A stretch of 64,000 nt of DNA from contig DASTWL010000013.1 in NCBI GenBank assembly GCA_035765895.1, forward strand, positions 1 to 64,000. Direction: 5' to 3'. Source of the DNA: Verrucomicrobiia bacterium. Lineage in GTDB: Bacteria > Verrucomicrobiota > Verrucomicrobiia > Limisphaerales > DSYF01. Shown here piece by piece: positions 31,350 through 47,696 of the stretch. Positions within the stretch are counted from its first letter, which is position 1. Each line of letters opens with the position of its first letter. The translations under genes were made by a program, and so were the position numbers. The notes below the pieces were generated by a model that worked only from the letters and a program-made list of their open reading frames with translations, did no database searches and was not told the origin of the DNA.

Positions 31350-31425
31350 GCGGCCGGTTGCCAGTTGAAAGCGGCCGGCTGCCGCTTTGAAACTTGCAAC
31401 GTTCAACATTCAACGTTCAACCTTT
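31350..31425. repeat. Heptad tract before pgsA, with 21-nt direct repeat
   Basis: Five tandem 7-mers of form AACNTTC occupy 31391-31425 and end five bases before the pgsA ATG. They follow an approximate direct repeat of 21-22 nt (31350-31370 and 31371-31392, each beginning GCGGCCGG). That repeat contains an AAAGCGGC/GCCGCTTT inverted repeat. No conventional ribosome-binding site lies in the tract. Confidence 0.8.
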
Positions 31426-31430
31426 CCCCG

Positions 31431-32024
31431 ATGAATCTGCCCAACAAGCTGACCGTTTCGCGCTTCGTTCTTACGGCGGCGTTTCTGGTGGTGATGTTCA
31501 CGGAGATGCCCTGGCACCAGACCCTCGCGCTGGTGCTGTTCAGCCTCGGCGGCATTACCGACTTTTTGGACGGCCGCATTGCGCGGCAACGCCAGCTCAT
31601 CACCAATTTCGGCATCCTGATGGATCCCCTCGCCGACAAAATCATGACCTGTTCAGCCTTCATCGCCTTTGTCGGTCTGAATTTGATTCCCGCGTGGATG
31701 GTTGTGGTGATTGTGGCTCGCGAACTGGCCATCACGGGGCTGCGGTTGTTGGCGGCGGCGAAGAATCTCGTGCTGGCAGCGGAAGGTTTCGGCAAGCACA
31801 AGACCATTTCGCAGATTGTGGCGATCATCGCCATCTTGACCGTGCGCGCTTACCCGCAATGGGGGACGGTCGGTCAGTCCATCTTTGGCCTTCATCTCGT
31901 GCGGGATGTTCCCTGGGCGGTGAGCTTTGCCCAGCTCTCCGTCTGGGTGGCCGTGGCTTTGACGATTTATTCCGGCTGCGCCTACTTGTGGAAGAATCGG
32001 GCGCTTTTCCTGCAGGACATGTAA
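31431..32024 (+). CDS. pgsA: CDP-diacylglycerol-glycerol-3-phosphate phosphatidyltransferase
   Basis: This integral membrane enzyme makes phosphatidylglycerophosphate, the first committed step to phosphatidylglycerol. The 197-aa protein opens NLPNKLTVSRF and has the CDP-alcohol phosphotransferase signature, DFLDGRIARQRQLITNFG continuing to LMDPLADK, with all conserved Asp residues. About five hydrophobic helices follow. The start at 31431 is chosen for the standard N-terminus; the longer frame lies over the heptad repeats. It forms a plus-strand run with rimO and miaB. Confidence 0.94.
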   Translation: MNLPNKLTVSRFVLTAAFLVVMFTEMPWHQTLALVLFSLGGITDFLDGRIARQRQLITNFGILMDPLADKIMTCSAFIAFVGLNLIPAWMVVVIVARELAITGLRLLAAAKNLVLAAEGFGKHKTISQIVAIIAILTVRAYPQWGTVGQSIFGLHLVRDVPWAVSFAQLSVWVAVALTIYSGCAYLWKNRALFLQDM

Positions 32025-35743: not shown

Positions 35744-36526
35744 TCATTTGGGAAGCACCGTTTCCGGCGGCGGCGCGACAATTATTTCAATACCTTTGGT
35801 TTGAATGACTTCCAGTAAATCATTCGGCGGGACGGCATCCGTGACGATGGCGTGCACGGCGCTCAGTTCACACAGGGGGATCATTGATTTGCGGCCGAAT
35901 TTGGTGTGGTCCAGGCAGAGAATGACCTTCTGCGCGCCGCGAATCATCTGGTGCTGGATGTCAATTAACAGCGCATGGGAGTTCGTAATGCCTTCGGGCG
36001 TAATGCCACCCGCACCCATGATCGCCACATCCGTGTGAATCTTGCCAAATGTCTCAACCGCAAGCGGCCCCACCAAAACGCCCAATCGCGGGTAGATAAT
36101 CCCTCCGCTGACAACGACTTCCACCCGGCTGGCTGAGGCAAATAGGTTCGCAACCGGCAGTGAATTGGTGACGACCATCTGCACCTTGTCCACCAAATGG
36201 CGCGCGACGTGGAAGGCCGTCGTGCCCGCGTCCACAATGACGCTCTGATTCGGCTGAATCAGCGCCGCGGCGGCCCGGCCGATGGCCTCTTTCTCATTCA
36301 GTTGATGCGTATCACGGGCGGAAAAAGCGAATTCATCCGTGGGCGGACTGACAATGCGGGCTCCGCCGTGGGTTCGCTTAACGTTACCGTTCGTTTCAAG
36401 GGCGGTTAAATCACGGCGAACTGTCGAAACCGAGGCCCCAACATGGGCAGAAAGCTCCTCCAACGAGGCGAATTCCGCCTTTTGCAGGTATTCCTCAATG
36501 CGCTTTTGACGCTCGTCTGCCGACAT
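35744..36526 (-). CDS. DeoR/GlpR-family repressor, divergent from BMC operon
   Basis: This 260-aa sugar-phosphate-responsive regulator has an N-terminal winged helix-turn-helix (ERQKRIEEYLQK to VSTVRRDLTAL and NGNVKRTHGGA). The C-terminal DeoR sensor domain has VDAGTTAFHVARHL, VVVSGGIIYPRLG and CLDHTKFGRKS, the motifs that bind phosphosugars. It is transcribed away from pduL across an 87-bp AT-rich region. DeoR regulators accompany the fucose/rhamnose microcompartment loci of planctomycetes, so it likely represses this operon and itself, with the sugar phosphate as inducer (inference). Confidence 0.93.
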   Translation of the reverse strand: MSADERQKRIEEYLQKAEFASLEELSAHVGASVSTVRRDLTALETNGNVKRTHGGARIVSPPTDEFAFSARDTHQLNEKEAIGRAAAALIQPNQSVIVDAGTTAFHVARHLVDKVQMVVTNSLPVANLFASASRVEVVVSGGIIYPRLGVLVGPLAVETFGKIHTDVAIMGAGGITPEGITNSHALLIDIQHQMIRGAQKVILCLDHTKFGRKSMIPLCELSAVHAIVTDAVPPNDLLEVIQTKGIEIIVAPPPETVLPK

Positions 36527-36613
36527 TGAGTGTGTTTGTGATAGATTTTGGAAGATATTGCAAGAAATTTGTTGACCGAATTATCAAAACTCGTCAAAGT
36601 CGCGCCCACAATT
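36527..36613. promoter_or_regulatory. Divergent promoter/operator region of BMC locus
   Basis: The 87-bp AT-rich gap separates the DeoR gene from pduL and should contain both promoters and the operator. For the plus strand, TTGCAA (36558-36563) and TATCAA (36582-36587) are spaced 18 bp, a plausible sigma-70 pair. I see no perfect inverted repeat that would define the operator. Confidence 0.5.
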
Positions 36614-37294
36614 ATGGCCACGGCACCAGCACAGCTTCCGCATCGCGCGGTGATTGAGCACATGGTTCGGCAGTCGGTTTACGCTCGACTCGGCAAGCCT
36701 TTGCCGCGCATGGCGCAGGCCCCCAGTCCGCTCGTGGTGAACGTCAGCGCGCGCCATTGCCATCTCACGCCCGAAGCAGTGGAGATCCTTTTCGGCAAAG
36801 GCCACAAGCTCACCGTTCACAAGTGGCTCTACATGGATGGCCAATTCGCCGCGAAGGAAACGGTGACCCTCATCGGCCCGCGCAGCCGTGTGATTTCCAA
36901 TCTCCGCATTCTCGGCCCGTGCCGGAATCTCAATCAGGTCGAACTTGCTTACACCGACGCCGTCGCGCTCGGCTTTGATATTCCACTCCGCATGTCCGGC
37001 GACATCAAGGGCACTCCCGGCTGCATGTTGATGGGGCCGGCGGGTTTCTTCGCGATGGAGCAGGGCGTGATTCGCGCGATGCGCCACGTTCACATGCACC
37101 AAACCGATGCGGAATTTTACGGTGTGAAAGCCGGCGACCATATGAAGCTGAAGATCGGCGGCCCGTGCGGGTTGACGCTCGACAAAATGGTCTGCCGCGT
37201 GGACCCGAGCTTCAAATTGGAAGTTCACATTGATACGGACGAGGGTAATGCGTGCAACCTCCAGCTCGAAACGCCGTGCGAACTTGCGAAGTGA
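36614..37294 (+). CDS. pduL: PduL-type phosphotransacylase
   Basis: PduL moves an acyl group from CoA to phosphate inside bacterial microcompartments, regenerating CoA. The 226-aa protein has two beta-barrel halves with the zinc sites SARHCHLTPE and RHVHMHQTDAEFYGV. Residues about 8-27 (PHRAVIEHMVRQSVYARLGK) form an amphipathic helix resembling an encapsulation peptide, followed by a Pro linker. The ATG at 36614 is used; a TTG at 36548 would add a hydrophobic leader and is unlikely. It is the first gene of the operon and differs from the soluble Pta at 56120-57178. The substrate is inferred to be lactyl-CoA or propionyl-CoA. Confidence 0.95.
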   Translation: MATAPAQLPHRAVIEHMVRQSVYARLGKPLPRMAQAPSPLVVNVSARHCHLTPEAVEILFGKGHKLTVHKWLYMDGQFAAKETVTLIGPRSRVISNLRILGPCRNLNQVELAYTDAVALGFDIPLRMSGDIKGTPGCMLMGPAGFFAMEQGVIRAMRHVHMHQTDAEFYGVKAGDHMKLKIGGPCGLTLDKMVCRVDPSFKLEVHIDTDEGNACNLQLETPCELAK

Positions 37295-37300
37295 TTTTCC

Positions 37301-37337
37301 CATCAACTATCAACCAAGAACCATCAACTAATAATTT
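37301..37337. repeat. YATCAAC heptad tract before BMC-H 1
   Basis: Five in-register 7-mers run from 37301 to 37335 and end two bases before the ATG. They are CATCAAC, TATCAAC, CAAGAAC, CATCAAC and an AT-rich TAATAAT. No Shine-Dalgarno sequence is present. Near-identical leaders precede BMC-H 2 and BMC-H 3. Confidence 0.85.
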
Positions 37338-37625
37338 ATGAGCGAAGCCATCGGAATGATTGAAACGAAGGGCTACACCGGAAGCATCGAAGCAACCGAT
37401 GCCATGGCCAAAGCCGCGAACATCACCATCAGCAAGACGATTCCCATCGGGGGTGGTCTCATTACCGTCATCTGCCGCGGGGACGTCGCGAGCGTCAAAG
37501 CCGCTGTGGACGCGGGCGCGAAAGCTGCCAGCAAAGTCGGCGAACTCGTCGCCAGCCACGTCATCGCCCGTCCGCACGAAGACCTGGCGAAGGGTTTCCT
37601 CGGCGAAGCCGCCGTGAAGAAGTAA
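37338..37625 (+). CDS. BMC-H hexameric shell protein 1
   Basis: This 95-aa single-domain shell protein (Pfam BMC) forms flat hexamers that tile the compartment facets. [35 protein letters not shown] and [11 protein letters not shown] are canonical. The residues lining the central pore ([10 protein letters not shown]) give a Gly-Gly-Gly loop, expected to make a small, neutral pore. It is followed 36 bp later by a second BMC-H gene. The C-terminal tail (FLGEAAVKK) is short and basic. It is one of three H proteins in the operon; planctomycete loci usually have two. Confidence 0.97.
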
Positions 37626-37628
37626 CGC

Positions 37629-37661
37629 CATCAACTGCCAAACAAGAACCTCAACAATTTT
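37629..37661. repeat. YATCAAC heptad tract before BMC-H 2
   Basis: CATCAAC (37629-37635), a diverged TGCCAAA, CAAGAAC (37643-37649) and a six-base CTCAAC are followed by AATTTT and the ATG. The order of copies matches the leaders of BMC-H 1 and 3, with one base lost in the last copy. Confidence 0.7.
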
Positions 37662-37940
37662 ATGGCTCAACAAGCAATTGGAATGATCGAATGCAAGGGA
37701 CTCTGCGCCCTGTTCGAAGCCACGGATGCCGCCCTCAAGGCCGCAAACGTCACGTTCACGGGCTGGGAGAAGATCGGCAGCGGTTACTGCACCGTGTTCT
37801 TCCGCGGCGACGTCGCCAGCGTGAAGGCTGCGACGGATGCCGGCGCTGCGGCGGCCGCAACAGTGGGTTCCGTCGTCGCTGTCCAGGTGATTCCACGTCC
37901 GCACGACGACCTGGCCGGTCTCGGCAAGTGGCTGGCCTGA
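37662..37940 (+). CDS. BMC-H hexameric shell protein 2
   Basis: This 92-aa shell protein begins [20 protein letters not shown] and ends [12 protein letters not shown]. Its pore loop is [10 protein letters not shown], a Gly-Ser-Gly type found in PduA and other propanediol-related shell proteins, so it may conduct a polar metabolite such as lactaldehyde or 1,2-propanediol (inference). Two Cys residues (IECKGLC) near the N-terminus are unusual for this family. It is followed by a palindromic heptad tract that precedes ackA. Confidence 0.97.
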
Positions 37941-38022
37941 TCAGGAGCTAGGAGTCAGGAGATAGAAGTTAGAACGGCCGAAGCAAATTCTAACTCCGAG
38001 CTTCCAACTTCTATCTACCAGA
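37941..38022. repeat. Palindromic NNRGRAG heptad element before ackA
   Basis: Five 7-mers of form NNRGRAG run from 37941 and are answered by five of form YTCYNNC ending exactly at the ackA ATG. Two perfect inverted repeats are present: AGTTAGAA (37967-37974) with its complement at 37988-37995, and AGATAGAAGTT (37960-37970) with 38006-38016. The loop is about 13 nt. Expected in RNA: a stem-loop directly abutting the start codon. Confidence 0.85.
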
Positions 38023-39213
38023 ATGAAAATCCTCGTCGCCAATCTCGGTTCCACGTCGCTCAAGTGGCGGCTGTTCGATTTCTCGAACGGCGCCGAGCGC
38101 CTGCTCCACAAGGGCGGGTTTGAGCGCGTGACCGATTATCCCAAGGCGATCGAGGACTGCCTCGCGCAGTTGAAGGAGGCGGGCGCCATCAGCAGCGAAC
38201 GCGAACTCGCCGCCGTCGGTTTCAAGACGGTGCTGGCGAAAGGCGTCAGTGGCTGCGTCCGGCTCGACGAACGCGTGTTGCAGGCCATGACCGATTACAT
38301 CGGGCTCGCGCCCGCGCACAATCCGCCTTACATCACGGGCATCCGGCTCTTCGCTCAACGGATGCCGGACGTGCCGCGCGTCGGGTTGTTTGAGACGGCG
38401 TTCTATCAATTCGCGCCCGAGGCCAACATGCGTTACGCCGTGCCACAGTCGTGGCACGACATCGGCGTGCGACGCTACGGCTTCCACGGCGCGAGCCACA
38501 AGTTCATCGCCGAGCGCTCGGCGGAATTGCTCGGTCGCAACGACATCGCGGAGCGCGCGCGTCGACTCTATCTCGACGGCGTGAAAACTTCGGTAAACGG
38601 CGCGAACGTGCGCATCATCTCCTGCCACCTCGGCGGCAGCTCCAGCGTGACGGGCATCCTGAACGGCGCGGGCATCGGCACCAGCATGGGGCTCAGCCCG
38701 CAATCCGGCTTGCCGCAGAACAATCGCGTCGGCGATCTCGATGCCGAGGCATTGCCTTACGCCGTGAAGACGCTCGGCATAAGCATCGAGGAAGCGCAAC
38801 GCCAGCTCTCGAAGGAAGGCGGCTTGAAGGGCTTGAGCGGCGTGTCCAACGACATCCGTGACATCAGCGCCGCGGCGGAGCAGGGCAATGCGAACGCGAA
38901 GCTAGCGCTCGACGTGCTCGTGGCCAGCGCGCGGCACTGGGTCGGCAGCTACTTTTTTCAGTTGAACGGTGCGGATGCCATCGTGTTCACCGCGGGGATT
39001 GGTGAAAACCGCGCCGACCTGCGCGCCGCCATCTGCGCAAACCTCGACAATCTCGGCGTCATCATTGACCCGGCGAAGAACGCCGCAGTGAAGGCGACTG
39101 AAGCTGTCATCAGCGCGGACAACTCGAAAGTGAAAGTGCTCGTGATCCCAACGAACGAAGAACTCGTCGTCGCCCGCGAGACCAAGCGCCTGCTCGAAGC
39201 GGCAAAGAACTGA
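38023..39213 (+). CDS. ackA: Acetate/propionate-type kinase of the BMC
   Basis: This 396-aa ASKHA-fold enzyme converts an acyl phosphate and ADP to the free acid and ATP. It starts [17 protein letters not shown] (phosphate-1 motif) and has [43 protein letters not shown] (phosphate-2) and [13 protein letters not shown] (adenosine motif). Residue differences from classical AckA (NLGSTS for NSGSSS, extra residues near 170-190) suggest a specialised substrate, perhaps lactyl phosphate. Position between shell genes ties it to the compartment pathway, where it probably acts with PduL. Confidence 0.93.
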
Positions 39214-39219
39214 TTTTTC

Positions 39220-39253
39220 CCTCAACCATCAACCTAGAATCATCAACAAATTT
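39220..39253. repeat. YATCAAC heptad tract before BMC-H 3
   Basis: CCTCAAC (39220-39226), CATCAAC, CTAGAAT and CATCAAC (39241-39247) are followed by AAATTT and the ATG at 39254. Copy order and even the preceding T-rich stretch match the tract before BMC-H 1, about 1.9 kb upstream. Confidence 0.85.
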
Positions 39254-39538
39254 ATGGCACAACAAGCAATCGGTATGATCGAAACACGCGGCCTCGTCGC
39301 CCTCGTCGAGGGGACGGACGCGATGCTCAAGGCGGCGAACGTCCAGCTCGTCGGCCCCATGACCCAGGTCGGCAACGCGCTCGTCACGGCGTGCGTCGTC
39401 GGCGACGTCGCGGCAGTGAAGGCCGCGGTTGACGCCGGCGCGCAGGCGGTCAGGTCCATCAAGGGCGAGATCGTCAGCGTCCACGTTATTGCGCGTCCGC
39501 ACGAAGACGTCGAAGCAGTGTTGCCCAAGAAAAAATAG
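39254..39538 (+). CDS. BMC-H hexameric shell protein 3
   Basis: This 94-aa shell protein starts [20 protein letters not shown], sharing most of its first 20 residues with BMC-H 2. Its pore loop is [11 protein letters not shown], where Asn-Ala replaces the Gly-Gly or Ser-Gly of the other two, giving a different pore edge. The C-terminal [20 protein letters not shown] keeps the inter-hexamer contact Arg/His region. It is the third H paralogue in the operon and lies just before a palindromic element. Confidence 0.97.
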
Positions 39539-39629
39539 TTAGAAGCGAGAAGCTGGAAGTTGGAATGGCACGCGAGTGCCAGCCTTCTGGCTCCTATCTC
39601 CTAACTTCTAACTTCAAACTCCTAACTTT
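39539..39629. repeat. Palindromic NNRGRAG heptad element before BMC-P 1
   Basis: Left arm: four 7-mers of form NNRGRAG (39539-39566), the first TTAGAAG. Apex: a perfect 6-bp stem (39566-39571 with 39576-39581) capped by GCGA, a GNRA tetraloop. Right arm: six 7-mers of form CTYCNNN in perfect register from 39584 to 39625, ending four bases before the BMC-P ATG. The stop codon of BMC-H 3 touches the left arm. Confidence 0.85.
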
Positions 39630-39947
39630 ATGTTCCTCGCCAAAGTCGAAGGCTCGGTGGTTGCCACCAAGAAAGAGGGCACGATGCTCGGACGCAAGCT
39701 CCTGCTCGTCCGGCCTCAACTGGTGGATGATAAAGATCCGACCAAGTTCAAGAACGGTCAAAACACCATCGTGGCCGTGGACACCGTGGGCGCCGGCCTG
39801 GGCGAGTTGGTGATGTTCTGCCAGGGCAGTTCCGCCCGTCTGTCCGCCGGCCTCAAGGATTGCCCCGTGGACGCCGTCATCATCGGCATCGTGGACACCG
39901 TGGACGTGCTGGGGAAAGTCATCTACAACGCGCGCACCGGCGCCTGA
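39630..39947 (+). CDS. BMC-P pentameric vertex protein 1
   Basis: This 105-aa protein is of the EutN/CcmL family, which caps the twelve vertices of the shell. It starts FLAKVEGSVVATKKEGTMLG and contains LVRPQLV, VAVDTVGAGLGELVMFCQGS and VDAVIIGIVDTVDV, all family hallmarks. The loop after the second strand is longer than in the other two BMC-P proteins of this operon (QLVDDKDPTKFKNGQN). Three distinct pentamer genes is the number usual in planctomycete-type loci. It is followed at 16 bp by the aldehyde dehydrogenase. Confidence 0.97.
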   Translation: MFLAKVEGSVVATKKEGTMLGRKLLLVRPQLVDDKDPTKFKNGQNTIVAVDTVGAGLGELVMFCQGSSARLSAGLKDCPVDAVIIGIVDTVDVLGKVIYNARTGA

Positions 39948-39963
39948 CGCAACTTAACTCTCG

Positions 39964-41466
39964 ATGAGCCAGATCAACGAAACCCTGATCCGCGATGTGG
40001 TTGCGGACGTAATGAACCGCTTGGGCGGCTCTGCTCCCGCGCCGACCGCGAGGCCCGCCGCGCCCGCAACGAACGCCACCTGCGGTTGCCACGTGCCCCC
40101 CGCCGTCACACCCGCGCCGTCGAGTGGCGGACGCAAGTTCGGTGTGTTTCAAGACGCGAACGAAGCTTGTGCCGCGGCGCATGAAGCGTTTCTGCAATTG
40201 CGCGAGAAGGGAATGGAAGGTCGTTCCAAGATCGTTGATATCATCAAGAAGATGGCGGACGCCTACGCCGACGAGTGGGGCCGCATTGAATATCAGGAGA
40301 CAAAGATCGGCCGCCTCGACCACAAGATCGCGAAGCTGAAGATCATCAAGCTTGTGCCCGGTGTGGAATGGATCCGCCCCGACGGGCGCAGCGGTGACCA
40401 CGGCATCACGATGGAGGAATACACTCCGTTCGGCGTCGTGGGTGCAGTCACGCCCAGCACGCATTCTGTGCCGACGATGAGCGGCAACATCGTGAACATC
40501 GTCGCGGCGGGGAATGCCGTCGTGTTCAACGCGCATCCGAGCGCGGCGAAGTGCGCCGCCATCGCGCTGCGCGCCTACAACGAAGCCATTTTCCGCGAGA
40601 CCGGCATCGAGAGCATCGCGTGCATGGTCGAGAAGCCGACGCTCGATTCCTTCAACGTCATCTGCAAACACGAAGTCGTCCGCCTGTTGCTCATCACCGG
40701 CGGACCCGCCGTGGTGAAAGCCGCGATGCTCACCGGCAAACGCGCCATCTGCGCTGGCCCTGGCAATCCACCCGTGCTCGTGGACGACACATGCGATTTG
40801 AAGCGCGCAGCGAAGGCGATCATCGCGGGCGCGAGTTTCGACAACAATCTTCTCTGCATCGGCGAGAAGCAGGTCTTCGTGCTCGACCACATCGCGGACA
40901 AGTTGATGGCCGAGATGGCGAACGCGGGCGCGCTCAAGTTGAACGGCGGCCAGATCGAGCGTTTGACTAAGTCGGCGTTCACCTTCGATGAAGCCGAGGC
41001 GGGAGGCTGTGCCCGCGCTCATGTGCATAAAGATTTTGTCGGCAAAGATCCTGCCGTCCTGGCGCAAGCCGCGGGCGTGAATCTGCCGGTAGGCACCGAG
41101 TTGCTCTTTGGTGAGACTGACCTGATGCATCCCTATGTGCAGGAAGAGCAGATGATGCCGTTCCTGCCCATCGTGCGCGTGAAAGACATTGCGCAGGGCA
41201 TCCAATTCGCGAAGCAATCCGAGCACGAGTATCGCCACACGTCCATTATCCACTCGCACAACGTTGAGCACATGACCGCGATGGCGCGGGCGATGGATAC
41301 CACGTTGTTCATCAAGAACGGTCCGAGCATGGCCGGTCTAGGCCTCGGCGGCGAAGGTTACCTGAGTTATTCCATCGCCACGCCGACCGGCGAAGGCGTT
41401 ACGAACCCAAAGACCTTTACGCGCGTCCGCCGCTGCGTAATGGTGGACAATTTACGGATTTACTAA
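39964..41466 (+). CDS. CoA-acylating aldehyde dehydrogenase of the BMC
   Basis: This 500-aa enzyme of the PduP/EutE type oxidises an aldehyde to acyl-CoA with NAD. Residues 1-20 (SQINETLIRDVVADVMNRLG) are an amphipathic helix typical of encapsulation peptides, followed by a Pro/Ala-rich linker to about residue 55. The catalytic Cys is C298 in SFDNNLLCIG. PFGVVGAVTPSTH and TGGPAVVKAAM mark the cofactor region. It would act inside the shell on lactaldehyde or propionaldehyde. A linker motif with ATCGCHVPP adds two Cys and a His of unknown role. Homology cannot fix the aldehyde substrate. Confidence 0.95.
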   Translation: MSQINETLIRDVVADVMNRLGGSAPAPTARPAAPATNATCGCHVPPAVTPAPSSGGRKFGVFQDANEACAAAHEAFLQLREKGMEGRSKIVDIIKKMADAYADEWGRIEYQETKIGRLDHKIAKLKIIKLVPGVEWIRPDGRSGDHGITMEEYTPFGVVGAVTPSTHSVPTMSGNIVNIVAAGNAVVFNAHPSAAKCAAIALRAYNEAIFRETGIESIACMVEKPTLDSFNVICKHEVVRLLLITGGPAVVKAAMLTGKRAICAGPGNPPVLVDDTCDLKRAAKAIIAGASFDNNLLCIGEKQVFVLDHIADKLMAEMANAGALKLNGGQIERLTKSAFTFDEAEAGGCARAHVHKDFVGKDPAVLAQAAGVNLPVGTELLFGETDLMHPYVQEEQMMPFLPIVRVKDIAQGIQFAKQSEHEYRHTSIIHSHNVEHMTAMARAMDTTLFIKNGPSMAGLGLGGEGYLSYSIATPTGEGVTNPKTFTRVRRCVMVDNLRIY

Positions 41467-41468
41467 GC

Positions 41469-41747
41469 ATGCTCCTCGCACGCGTCGAAGGCAATGTGGT
41501 TGCGACTCGGAAGCATCCGAGCTTCGACGGCTGGCGCTTGGTGATTTGCCAGCCCATTAACAACGCGGGCGAACCCGAAGGCGCGCCGCAGGTGGCGATT
41601 GATTCCCATGGCGCCGGCATGCATCAGCGCGTGGTGATTTCGTCGGATGGAATGGCCGCGCGCAAAGCGGTGGGCGACGACAAAAGCCCGGCACGTTGGC
41701 TGGTCATCGGCGTGGTGGACGAGAAAGAGCCGGGGGTGCCGGTATGA
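41469..41747 (+). CDS. BMC-P pentameric vertex protein 2
   Basis: This 92-aa EutN/CcmL-type protein starts LLARVEGNVVATRKHPSFDG, with WRLVICQPI, AIDSHGAGMHQRVVISSDG and LVIGVVDEKEPGV. Its ATG follows the dehydrogenase stop by two bases. Its middle loop is shorter than in BMC-P 1. It overlaps the next BMC-P gene by ATGA, so the two are translationally coupled and probably expressed at equal levels. Confidence 0.96.
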   Translation: MLLARVEGNVVATRKHPSFDGWRLVICQPINNAGEPEGAPQVAIDSHGAGMHQRVVISSDGMAARKAVGDDKSPARWLVIGVVDEKEPGVPV

Positions 41748-42052
41748 AGCTGGGCGCGGTCATTGGTCGCGTGACGTTCAGCAAGCTCGACCCGCAATTA
41801 GTGGGCGGGCGCTTCCTAATCGTGAGCCCGTTCACGCGCGACCATTACCAGCAGGGCAGCGAGACGCCGCCCGGCTTGAGTAAGGATCCGAGCCTCGTCG
41901 TTTACGACTCGCTTGGCGGCGGGGTCGGCCAGACGATTGGATACGTCGAAGGGCGCGAAGCTGCGCAGCCGTTCGCCACGTCGCCACCGATTGACGCCAT
42001 CAACGCGGCGTTGGTGGACGAAATTTTTTACAATCCATTCCGGAAGGAGTGA
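41744..42052 (+). CDS. BMC-P pentameric vertex protein 3
   Basis: This 102-aa EutN/CcmL-like protein starts KLGAVIGRVTFSKLDPQLVG, followed by RFLIVSPFTRDHY, VVYDSLGGGVGQTIGYVEG and a C-terminal extension (ALVDEIFYNPFRKE). It is the most divergent of the three: the usual hydrophobic strand ending VIGIVD is replaced by the helical tail, so it may cap a specialised vertex or bind cargo. The start at 41744 is fixed by the ATGA overlap with BMC-P 2; an earlier in-frame ATG lies inside that gene. Its stop (TGA) lies within the first heptad of the next element. Confidence 0.93.
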   Translation: MKLGAVIGRVTFSKLDPQLVGGRFLIVSPFTRDHYQQGSETPPGLSKDPSLVVYDSLGGGVGQTIGYVEGREAAQPFATSPPIDAINAALVDEIFYNPFRKE

Positions 42053-42442
42053 GGAGCGAGAAGCTGGGAGCGAGCATGGGAACTCCAGCACGAAAGTTTC
42101 AAGATCTTTTGGTGTGGCAAAGGGCGCATGCGCTGGTGTTGAGCGTATACCAAATGACACGCGGATTCCCTCCCCGAAGAGCGGTTTGGGTTGAGTTCAC
42201 AATTGCGCCGGGCGGTGGTGTCCGTGCCGGCCAACATCGCCGAAGGTTTTCGGAAGCGGGGCACAGCGGACAAAGCGCGGTTCATGAACATCGCGCAAGG
42301 GTCTTTGGACGAAGTGCAGTATTATTTGATACTGACGCAGGATTTGAAATATGCCGATTGTAGCAAACTGCTCTCGGATTACGAGGAAGTCAGCAAAATG
42401 TTAAATGCTTACGAGCGGGCGATTCTATCTTCTCGCTCCTAG
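42050..42442 (+). mobile_element. IVS-like element: 12-bp inverted repeats around four-helix-bundle gene
   Basis: The element is bounded by AGGAGCGAGAAG (42052-42063) and its exact reverse complement (42429-42440). Both ends are built of NNRGRAG-type 7-mers in register, the same family as the palindromes at 37941 and 39539. It encloses a single broken gene for an S23/IVP-type four-helix-bundle protein. The 23S rRNA intervening sequences of several bacteria have this layout (terminal inverted repeats around an S23 gene) and are removed by RNase III. Here the element lies between BMC-P 3 and the aldolase, with no rRNA nearby, and ends directly at the aldolase ATG. Confidence 0.7.
42076..42442 (+). 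pseudogene. Four-helix-bundle (S23/IVP-type) protein, frameshifted
   Basis: The N-terminal part (frame of 42076) reads ARKFQDLLVWQRAHALVLSV with YQMTRGFPP, the standard opening of the family. The C-terminal part, in the +1-shifted frame, reads LSSQLRRAVVSVPANIAEGF to ILSSRS and ends at 42442. The frames meet in the C-run at 42172-42175. Deleting one C there would restore an uninterrupted protein (FPPEERFGLSSQ) of about 121 residues. So this is either a one-base pseudogene or a sequencing error in a homopolymer. These proteins are pentameric helical bundles related to Avd of diversity-generating retroelements and to 23S intervening-sequence proteins; they are thought to bind nucleic acid. Confidence 0.8.
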
Positions 42443-47296: not shown

Positions 47297-47332
47297 GGGA
47301 AATTTATGATTTCGGATTTGGGATTTATGATT
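47297..47332. repeat. AATCNNA heptad tract before sucD
   Basis: On the minus strand five 7-mers in register (AATCATA, AATCCCA, AATCCGA, AATCATA and AATTTCC) run to one base before the sucD ATG. The first copy covers the end of the upstream VOC gene, including its stop codon. No Shine-Dalgarno sequence is present. Confidence 0.8.
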
Positions 47333-47696
47333 GCTTCCGCTTGTGGATGCACAGCGTGTTGCCGTCGGGGTCGAAGGCCATCGCCATGTGGCACACGGGG
47401 GTTTCCATCGGTTCCATGCGGAACTTCACGTTATGCTGCTTGAGCGTGGCGATGGCGGCATCAAAATCTTCAACCTCCAGCGCAACCGAGCAGCCGTCCG
47501 GGCCGGGCTTGAACATCCCGGGCGCGCAGCCAATGGCCAGTGCACCGGGACCGATTTCGTATTCGGCCCACTGCGGACCGCCGGGCTCGCCGTAATGACT
47601 GGTGGGTTTCAGCCCCAGCACGCCCTCATAAAATTCGCGGGCGCGCTTCATGTCTGTGACGGCATAACAGCTGAAGGCAATTTCTTTGATTTTCAT
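47325..47696 (-). CDS. VOC-superfamily (glyoxalase-like) protein
   Basis: This 123-aa protein has the two-module VOC fold. [20 protein letters not shown] is the first strand and helix; [20 protein letters not shown] and [20 protein letters not shown] complete the second. The usual first His is replaced by Cys (SCYAV), and the last Glu by Asn (DPDGN), so metal binding is doubtful. It stands between sucC and sucD on their strand and is probably transcribed with them. Its stop codon lies inside a heptad tract. Function is unknown. Confidence 0.82.

Follow-up and report, generated by a model that had tools for sequence, protein, structure and literature searches.

How can one operon supply a microcompartment with wall protein in large excess over corner protein? 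In alpha-carboxysomes ~89 hexamers are present per pentamer (PMC9040747), so that hexamer over pentamer production has to be tuned, and how an operon makes hundreds of shell hexamers per dozen pentamers matters in practice when microcompartments are to be built. The question is raised here by a microcompartment (BMC) operon at 36.6-43.5 kb of the window, i.e. of the whole 64,000 nucleotide stretch analysed, which belongs to a 4.6 Mb genome whose nearest relatives are metagenome genomes of Limisphaerales (Verrucomicrobia subdivision 3). Its genes are, in order, a PduL-type phosphate propanoyltransferase (gene 1, 36614-37294), BMC-H1 (37338-37625, 95 aa), BMC-H2 (37662-37940, 92 aa), an acetate/propionate kinase-family gene (38023-39213, TIGR00016 above cut-off), BMC-H3 (39254-39538, 94 aa), the CcmL/EutN-like pentamer gene BMC-P (39630-39947), an acylating aldehyde dehydrogenase (ALDH, 39964-41466), a further BMC-P and a class II aldolase; those given with coordinates are on the plus strand. 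With PduL, several BMC-H, BMC-P, acylating ALDH and class II aldolase clustered, this is a sugar-type planctomycete/verrucomicrobial BMC locus, and its gene order is kept in relatives. The three BMC-H products gave EutM/CsoS1-like matches, all under the NCBIfam equivalog cut-offs. By eye, an additional ORF of the operon (41744-42052) looks like a third BMC-P-type protein, and two overlapping frames flanked by the BMC-P genes and the aldolase (42049-42442) have translations resembling the halves of one four-helix-bundle protein, whose gene may be frameshifted. The verrucomicrobial BMC operon, in the same gene order, is also present in three records (L066, L030 and L061) that bear the titles Klebsiella pneumoniae or Proteobacteria bacterium and are probably mislabelled metagenome bins.

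Each hexamer gene is preceded by an operon-internal leader built of short repeats, on the plus strand. Leader 1 (37301-37337, abutting the ATG at 37338) consists of CATCAAC, TATCAAC, CAAGAAC and CATCAAC, followed by TAATAATTT and the ATG. In leader 2 (37629-37661), a decayed version of this pattern, CATCAAC, TGCCAAA, CAAGAAC and CTCAAC are followed by AATTTT and the ATG at 37662-37664, and in leader 3 (39220-39253, units starting at 39221) CTCAAC, CATCAAC, CTAGAAT and CATCAAC precede AAATTT and the ATG at 39254-39256. The order common to the three is CATCAAC / YATCAAC / CWAGAAY / CATCAAC / AT-rich / ATG, the odd unit CWAGAAY always standing third. The first-pass annotation had described about four 7-mers per leader; this holds exactly for leader 1 and roughly for the other two, as leaders 2 and 3 each contain one 6-mer. 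It had also reported that Shine-Dalgarno (SD) sequences are missing, and indeed no SD core (GGAG, GAGG or AGGA) was found in any of the three leaders, which occupy the place of the SD site. Matches at lag 7, summed over the three leaders, amounted to 45, compared to 29.1±4.4 in dinucleotide shuffles (0/5000); per leader, P was 0.0005 for leader 1, 0.04 for leader 3 and 0.45 for leader 2, which is heptad-like solely through its resemblance to leader 1. Aligned in pairs, the leaders scored 20.5, 26.5 and 14.0, while shuffles averaged 6.4, 8.4 and 6.5 (P at most 0.0005), confirming that the leaders are closer to each other than expected by chance.

The leaders are also predicted to be open. Leader 1 has a single G within its last 30 nt, and all three folded less well than their shuffles (z of +1.2, +2.0 and +1.2 for leaders 1, 2 and 3). 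Within their own genome they ranked from the 92nd to the 98th percentile for openness, and their G content placed them within the bottom 3%. Genome-wide G depletion of leaders was ruled out (mean G 0.23), as was an open leader being a general mark of high expression, since leaders of the ribosomal-protein operon are ordinary in this genome (mean G 0.25, unpaired probability 0.49). The absence of SD sites is by itself unremarkable, because such sites are rare across the genome (10%, compared to a 6% background). As the anti-SD (CCTCC) is retained in the 16S rRNA and a full-length S1 gene (rpsA) is present, both the SD and the S1 routes are possible. In composition, the three leaders associate A/C-rich heptads with 6-9 AT-rich nt at the ATG, an S1 target being expected to be A/U-rich.

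The unstructured state put forward in the first-pass annotation proved to be conserved in relatives for BMC-H genes, and not for their operon neighbours. Start positions in relatives were fixed through protein alignment, which makes an artefact of start calling unlikely. Among 41-45 related loci, G represented 7-11% of the last 30 nt of BMC-H leaders, compared to 20-25% before PduL, kinase, BMC-P and ALDH (paired P of 3×10−4 to 1×10−7 with near duplicates removed, values that overstate independence as the loci are phylogenetically related). Mean unpaired probability was 0.61-0.71 in BMC-H leaders, and 0.41-0.49 in neighbouring ones (up to 45 loci). Periodicity was found as well in the BMC-H leaders of relatives, the window being excluded (z of 9.7 at lag 7, and 8.0 at lag 14). 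The outcome said beforehand to refute the first-pass reading, unrelated leaders with ordinary ribosome-binding sites in relatives, was half observed: orthologous BMC-H leaders mostly differed in sequence, with units such as AATCATA, TGACTAC, GTGAAAC, or none, but ordinary ribosome-binding sites were not found in them. In 15 Akkermansiaceae-like loci, SD-like motifs were present in 73% of the ALDH leaders and 0% of the BMC-H2 and BMC-H3 leaders. Like the rarity of SD sites and the ordinary ribosomal-protein leaders in this genome, two further observations count against the reading developed below: SD-like bases occur in 40% of the Akkermansiaceae BMC-H1 leaders, and in the window BMC-P too has a G-free leader, closed solely by its predicted hairpin. 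We conclude that the conserved feature of BMC-H leaders is their predicted openness, and not their sequence.

Were the leaders copied together with the shell genes, as had been suggested? The three BMC-H proteins are just 55-58% identical, with ~50% identity at third codon positions, and in relatives most BMC-H orthologues resemble their own class more closely than the paralogues resemble one another, meaning that the duplications are old. Coding sequences are far more diverged than the leaders, which argues against joint copying, and in two same-family loci (L039, at the same contig position as in genome G002, and L067, with the same match as in genome G003) orthologous BMC-H genes carry different leaders. 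Inheritance of the leader with gene duplication was ruled out on these two grounds. The other proposal, an independent repeat inserted three times, came nearer to the truth, in that the heptads belong to a genome-wide repeat class. In Limisphaerales-like genomes, the likeness between BMC-H leaders of one genome was 9.93, compared to 8.02±0.27 after permutation (0/1000), and the window was the most extreme case. As leader similarity within genomes exceeds that of permuted genomes, a likely cause is either homogenisation that followed duplication or a repeat "dialect" common to the leaders. The likeness seen here would most likely come from copying or homogenisation of the arrays within the genome, after the genes had diverged; within-genome copying and a shared dialect give the same pattern, and are indistinguishable here.

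The spread of heptads through the genome goes beyond the first-pass annotation. Periodicity was measured on 1.15 Mb of stretches, and pattern searches were run over the whole genome. Period 7 was the sole clearly enriched non-triplet period in noncoding DNA, with 15 islands compared to 0-2 for other non-triplet periods, and 7 for its double, period 14. The pattern TCAACNNTCAAC had 40 matches in the genome, compared to 2 for the reversed control. Three-unit arrays were detected in 45 of 195 genomes sampled across the phylum, in some of which the reversed control matches too. Across the phylum the TCAAC core is constant and the last two positions (NN) are variable, units varying at fixed positions, and further unit families (TAACTYC, TTCCGCR, AAATCRT, ACTGANN) behave alike. 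Two other arrays lie in the window: GTTCAAC/ATTCAAC heptads of the same repeat class as in BMC-H leaders immediately precede the pgsA start codon (31384-31432), and GGATTTN/TGATTTN units occupy a gene boundary (47300-47335).

TCAACNN arrays were also found inside coding sequences, in leuS (two sites), pheT, priA and rsmB, on L114 (minus strand), L112, L121 and L129, where they encode QPSTLN-like hydrophilic linkers of LeuRS (twice), PheT, PriA and RsmB. Comparison to solved structures showed insertions of ~17-18 residues for the first LeuRS stretch and for that of PriA, a 3-residue difference for PheT, and no net insertion for RsmB. A near-palindrome, GTTCGGGCGTCCCGCCCGAACC (L121:1040-1065), immediately precedes the priA heptads within the same in-frame insertion. 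At the first leuS site, TCAACNN units are present in our genome, a decayed TCAAC array in a same-genus genome, and CCGCAAY units in a same-family genome. The array at this site thus changes its units while staying at one permissive position, just as in the BMC-H leaders.

A second element, likewise absent from the first-pass annotation, lies on the 3′ side of BMC-H2 and BMC-H3. In relatives, most arrays that precede a start are rich in C, A and T on the mRNA strand, and most of those that follow a stop are rich in G and A, therefore the pairs form inverted repeats. Past BMC-H2 (37941-38022, plus strand), GGAGTCA/GAAGTTA-type units (37942-37975) are followed by complementary AACTTCTATC-type units up to the kinase start, with a predicted hairpin (MFE −29.4 kcal/mol, z −1.8) that would occlude the kinase leader. 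Past BMC-H3 (39533-39629, plus strand), GTTAGAA-type units (39534-39567) face CTAACTT-type units (39580-39629), and the predicted hairpin (MFE −36.2 kcal/mol, z −3.7) extends into the BMC-P leader. In relatives, predicted structure recurred in the 80 nt past the stops of BMC-H2 and BMC-H3 (mean z of −1.5 and −2.0 respectively), whereas the slots past BMC-H1, PduL and the kinase gene gave +0.7 to +1.0 (P of 3×10−18 when BMC-P was included among the genes compared, and 1×10−9 in the paired test). Slot-by-slot folding was concordant. Many of the hairpins of relatives are built of heptads, and many are not. Stable hairpins are therefore predicted right after genes whose products are in high demand.

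Starting from what was computed, namely the sequences, the repeat class, the conserved composition, and the predicted openness and hairpins, the reading we consider rather probable is that open, SD-less leaders and 3′ hairpins together set a high hexamer yield on one mRNA, with heptads as the raw material. Leaders 1-3 would be G-poor, single-stranded ribosome loading regions within the polycistronic BMC mRNA, supporting strong SD-independent initiation on the hexamer genes, perhaps via S1, or by openness alone. The hairpins past BMC-H2 and BMC-H3 may protect the upstream hexamer segment, damp kinase and vertex protein, or both, so that, with the leaders, they would split the mRNA into segments of high yield, for the hexamers, and of lower yield, for kinase and vertex protein. 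The leaders would raise initiation, and the hairpins would either reduce translation downstream or stabilise the mRNA upstream, a layout that probably allows wall protein to be made from a single operon in large excess over corner protein and enzyme. As to the heptads, they would belong to a class of degenerate 7-bp repeats that occurs genome-wide and turns over fast, and would not be copied promoters or inherited gene parts. Arising or spreading in unconstrained C/A-rich DNA, they would furnish ready-made unstructured sequence when in sense-only arrays, and hairpin stems when in inverted pairs. A considerably less probable possibility is that this turnover is all there is: heptads would land or expand in unconstrained sequence, leaders would tolerate them, and low G and openness would be by-products of functionless repeats. 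Like arrays serving as linkers inside genes, and the replacement of TCAACNN by CCGCAAY at one leuS site, are what neutral turnover would produce, and the excess of heptamers in bacteria has been attributed to polymerase slippage, at least as cited in PMC4692102. However, heptad-free BMC-H leaders of relatives are likewise G-poor and open, whereas neighbouring leaders, with an equal chance of gaining repeats, are not; moreover, simple slippage would not keep TCAAC constant while units vary at fixed positions.

The constant TCAAC core with variable NN across the phylum, the sense orientation before starts, and the sharing of the pattern by three genes of one structure could alternatively point to a recognition site, where an RNA-binding protein (of the Csp/OB-fold type, S1 or a dedicated one) bound to tandem TCAACNN would recruit ribosomes or co-regulate the three hexamer genes, as MacGregor 2015 put forward for TAACTGA (PMC4679880). 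We find this very doubtful, for the orthologous leaders of relatives carry other units or none, identical units lie inside genes, and no copy is present at the operon promoter. A role at the DNA level, with heptads as transcription-factor sites or internal promoters, seems most improbable, even with a DeoR-like regulator gene next door (35744-36526, translation judged by eye). No sigma-70-like site was recovered by a consensus scan of 36300-39700, which also missed a promoter-like stretch containing TTGAC (36572-36576) upstream of PduL that resembles conserved upstream sequences of relatives. Heptads are absent from this upstream region and from the divergent promoter region, and their position follows start codon and strand, not promoters. 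In the intergenic slots neither internal promoters nor intrinsic terminators were detected, and no Rfam family or riboswitch was found in the region at E up to 1. A last and speculative extension, which we regard as quite improbable, is a heptad RNA code of Verrucomicrobiota, in which sense arrays would be protein-bound enhancers, inverted ones closing hairpins, and turnover would retune microcompartment stoichiometry between species.

Open leaders and 3′ hairpins, as a conserved pattern, offer a directly testable answer to the question of shell stoichiometry in a large and uncultured group, and the BMC-H leader sequences could serve to tune synthetic shells. The data also extend a poorly understood phenomenon, heptamer repeats, to Verrucomicrobiota, with arrays lying inside housekeeping genes as well.

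Intergenic stem-loops are known to tune expression within operons, e.g. in malE-malF and puf. As in these cases, the hairpins predicted here are right after a gene whose product is needed in excess, but their stems are often inverted heptad arrays. The leaders resemble SD-independent initiation regions such as those of E. coli rpsA and Bacteroidia mRNAs (PMC9976891), as they have no SD, low structure, and an anti-SD still present in the cell, but differ by their A/C-rich heptads and by their restriction, within the operon, to the hexamer genes. They share with the G-rich heptamers of Xanthomonas and Nostoc (PMC4692102) the intergenic 7-bp arrays, the conserved and variable positions, the inverted pairs and the fast length change, and the heptanucleotide repeats of Calothrix, as far as that paper cites them, are grouped with these arrays; the Xanthomonas and Nostoc heptamers have quadruplex potential, whereas our leaders are G-poor on the mRNA strand. 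In placement, the leaders are like the TAACTGA direct repeats of marine Beggiatoaceae, located before SD-less starts, for which binding of S1 or Csp was suggested (MacGregor 2015, PMC4679880): both are tandem 7-mers in sense orientation a few bases upstream of start codons, replace the SD, and also occur within ORFs. In Beggiatoaceae, however, a single heptamer is preferred across the genome, its near variants not being repeated, and there is no enrichment of any functional class (PMC4679880), whereas the units described here are degenerate (core plus NN), fall into several families, and precede one structural gene class with open, G-poor leaders phylum-wide. Heptamer repeats before SD-less starts were thus already known in Beggiatoaceae, Xanthomonas and cyanobacteria; what is new is the association of G-poor, predicted-open BMC-H leaders with recurrent predicted 3′ hairpins across 45 related loci.
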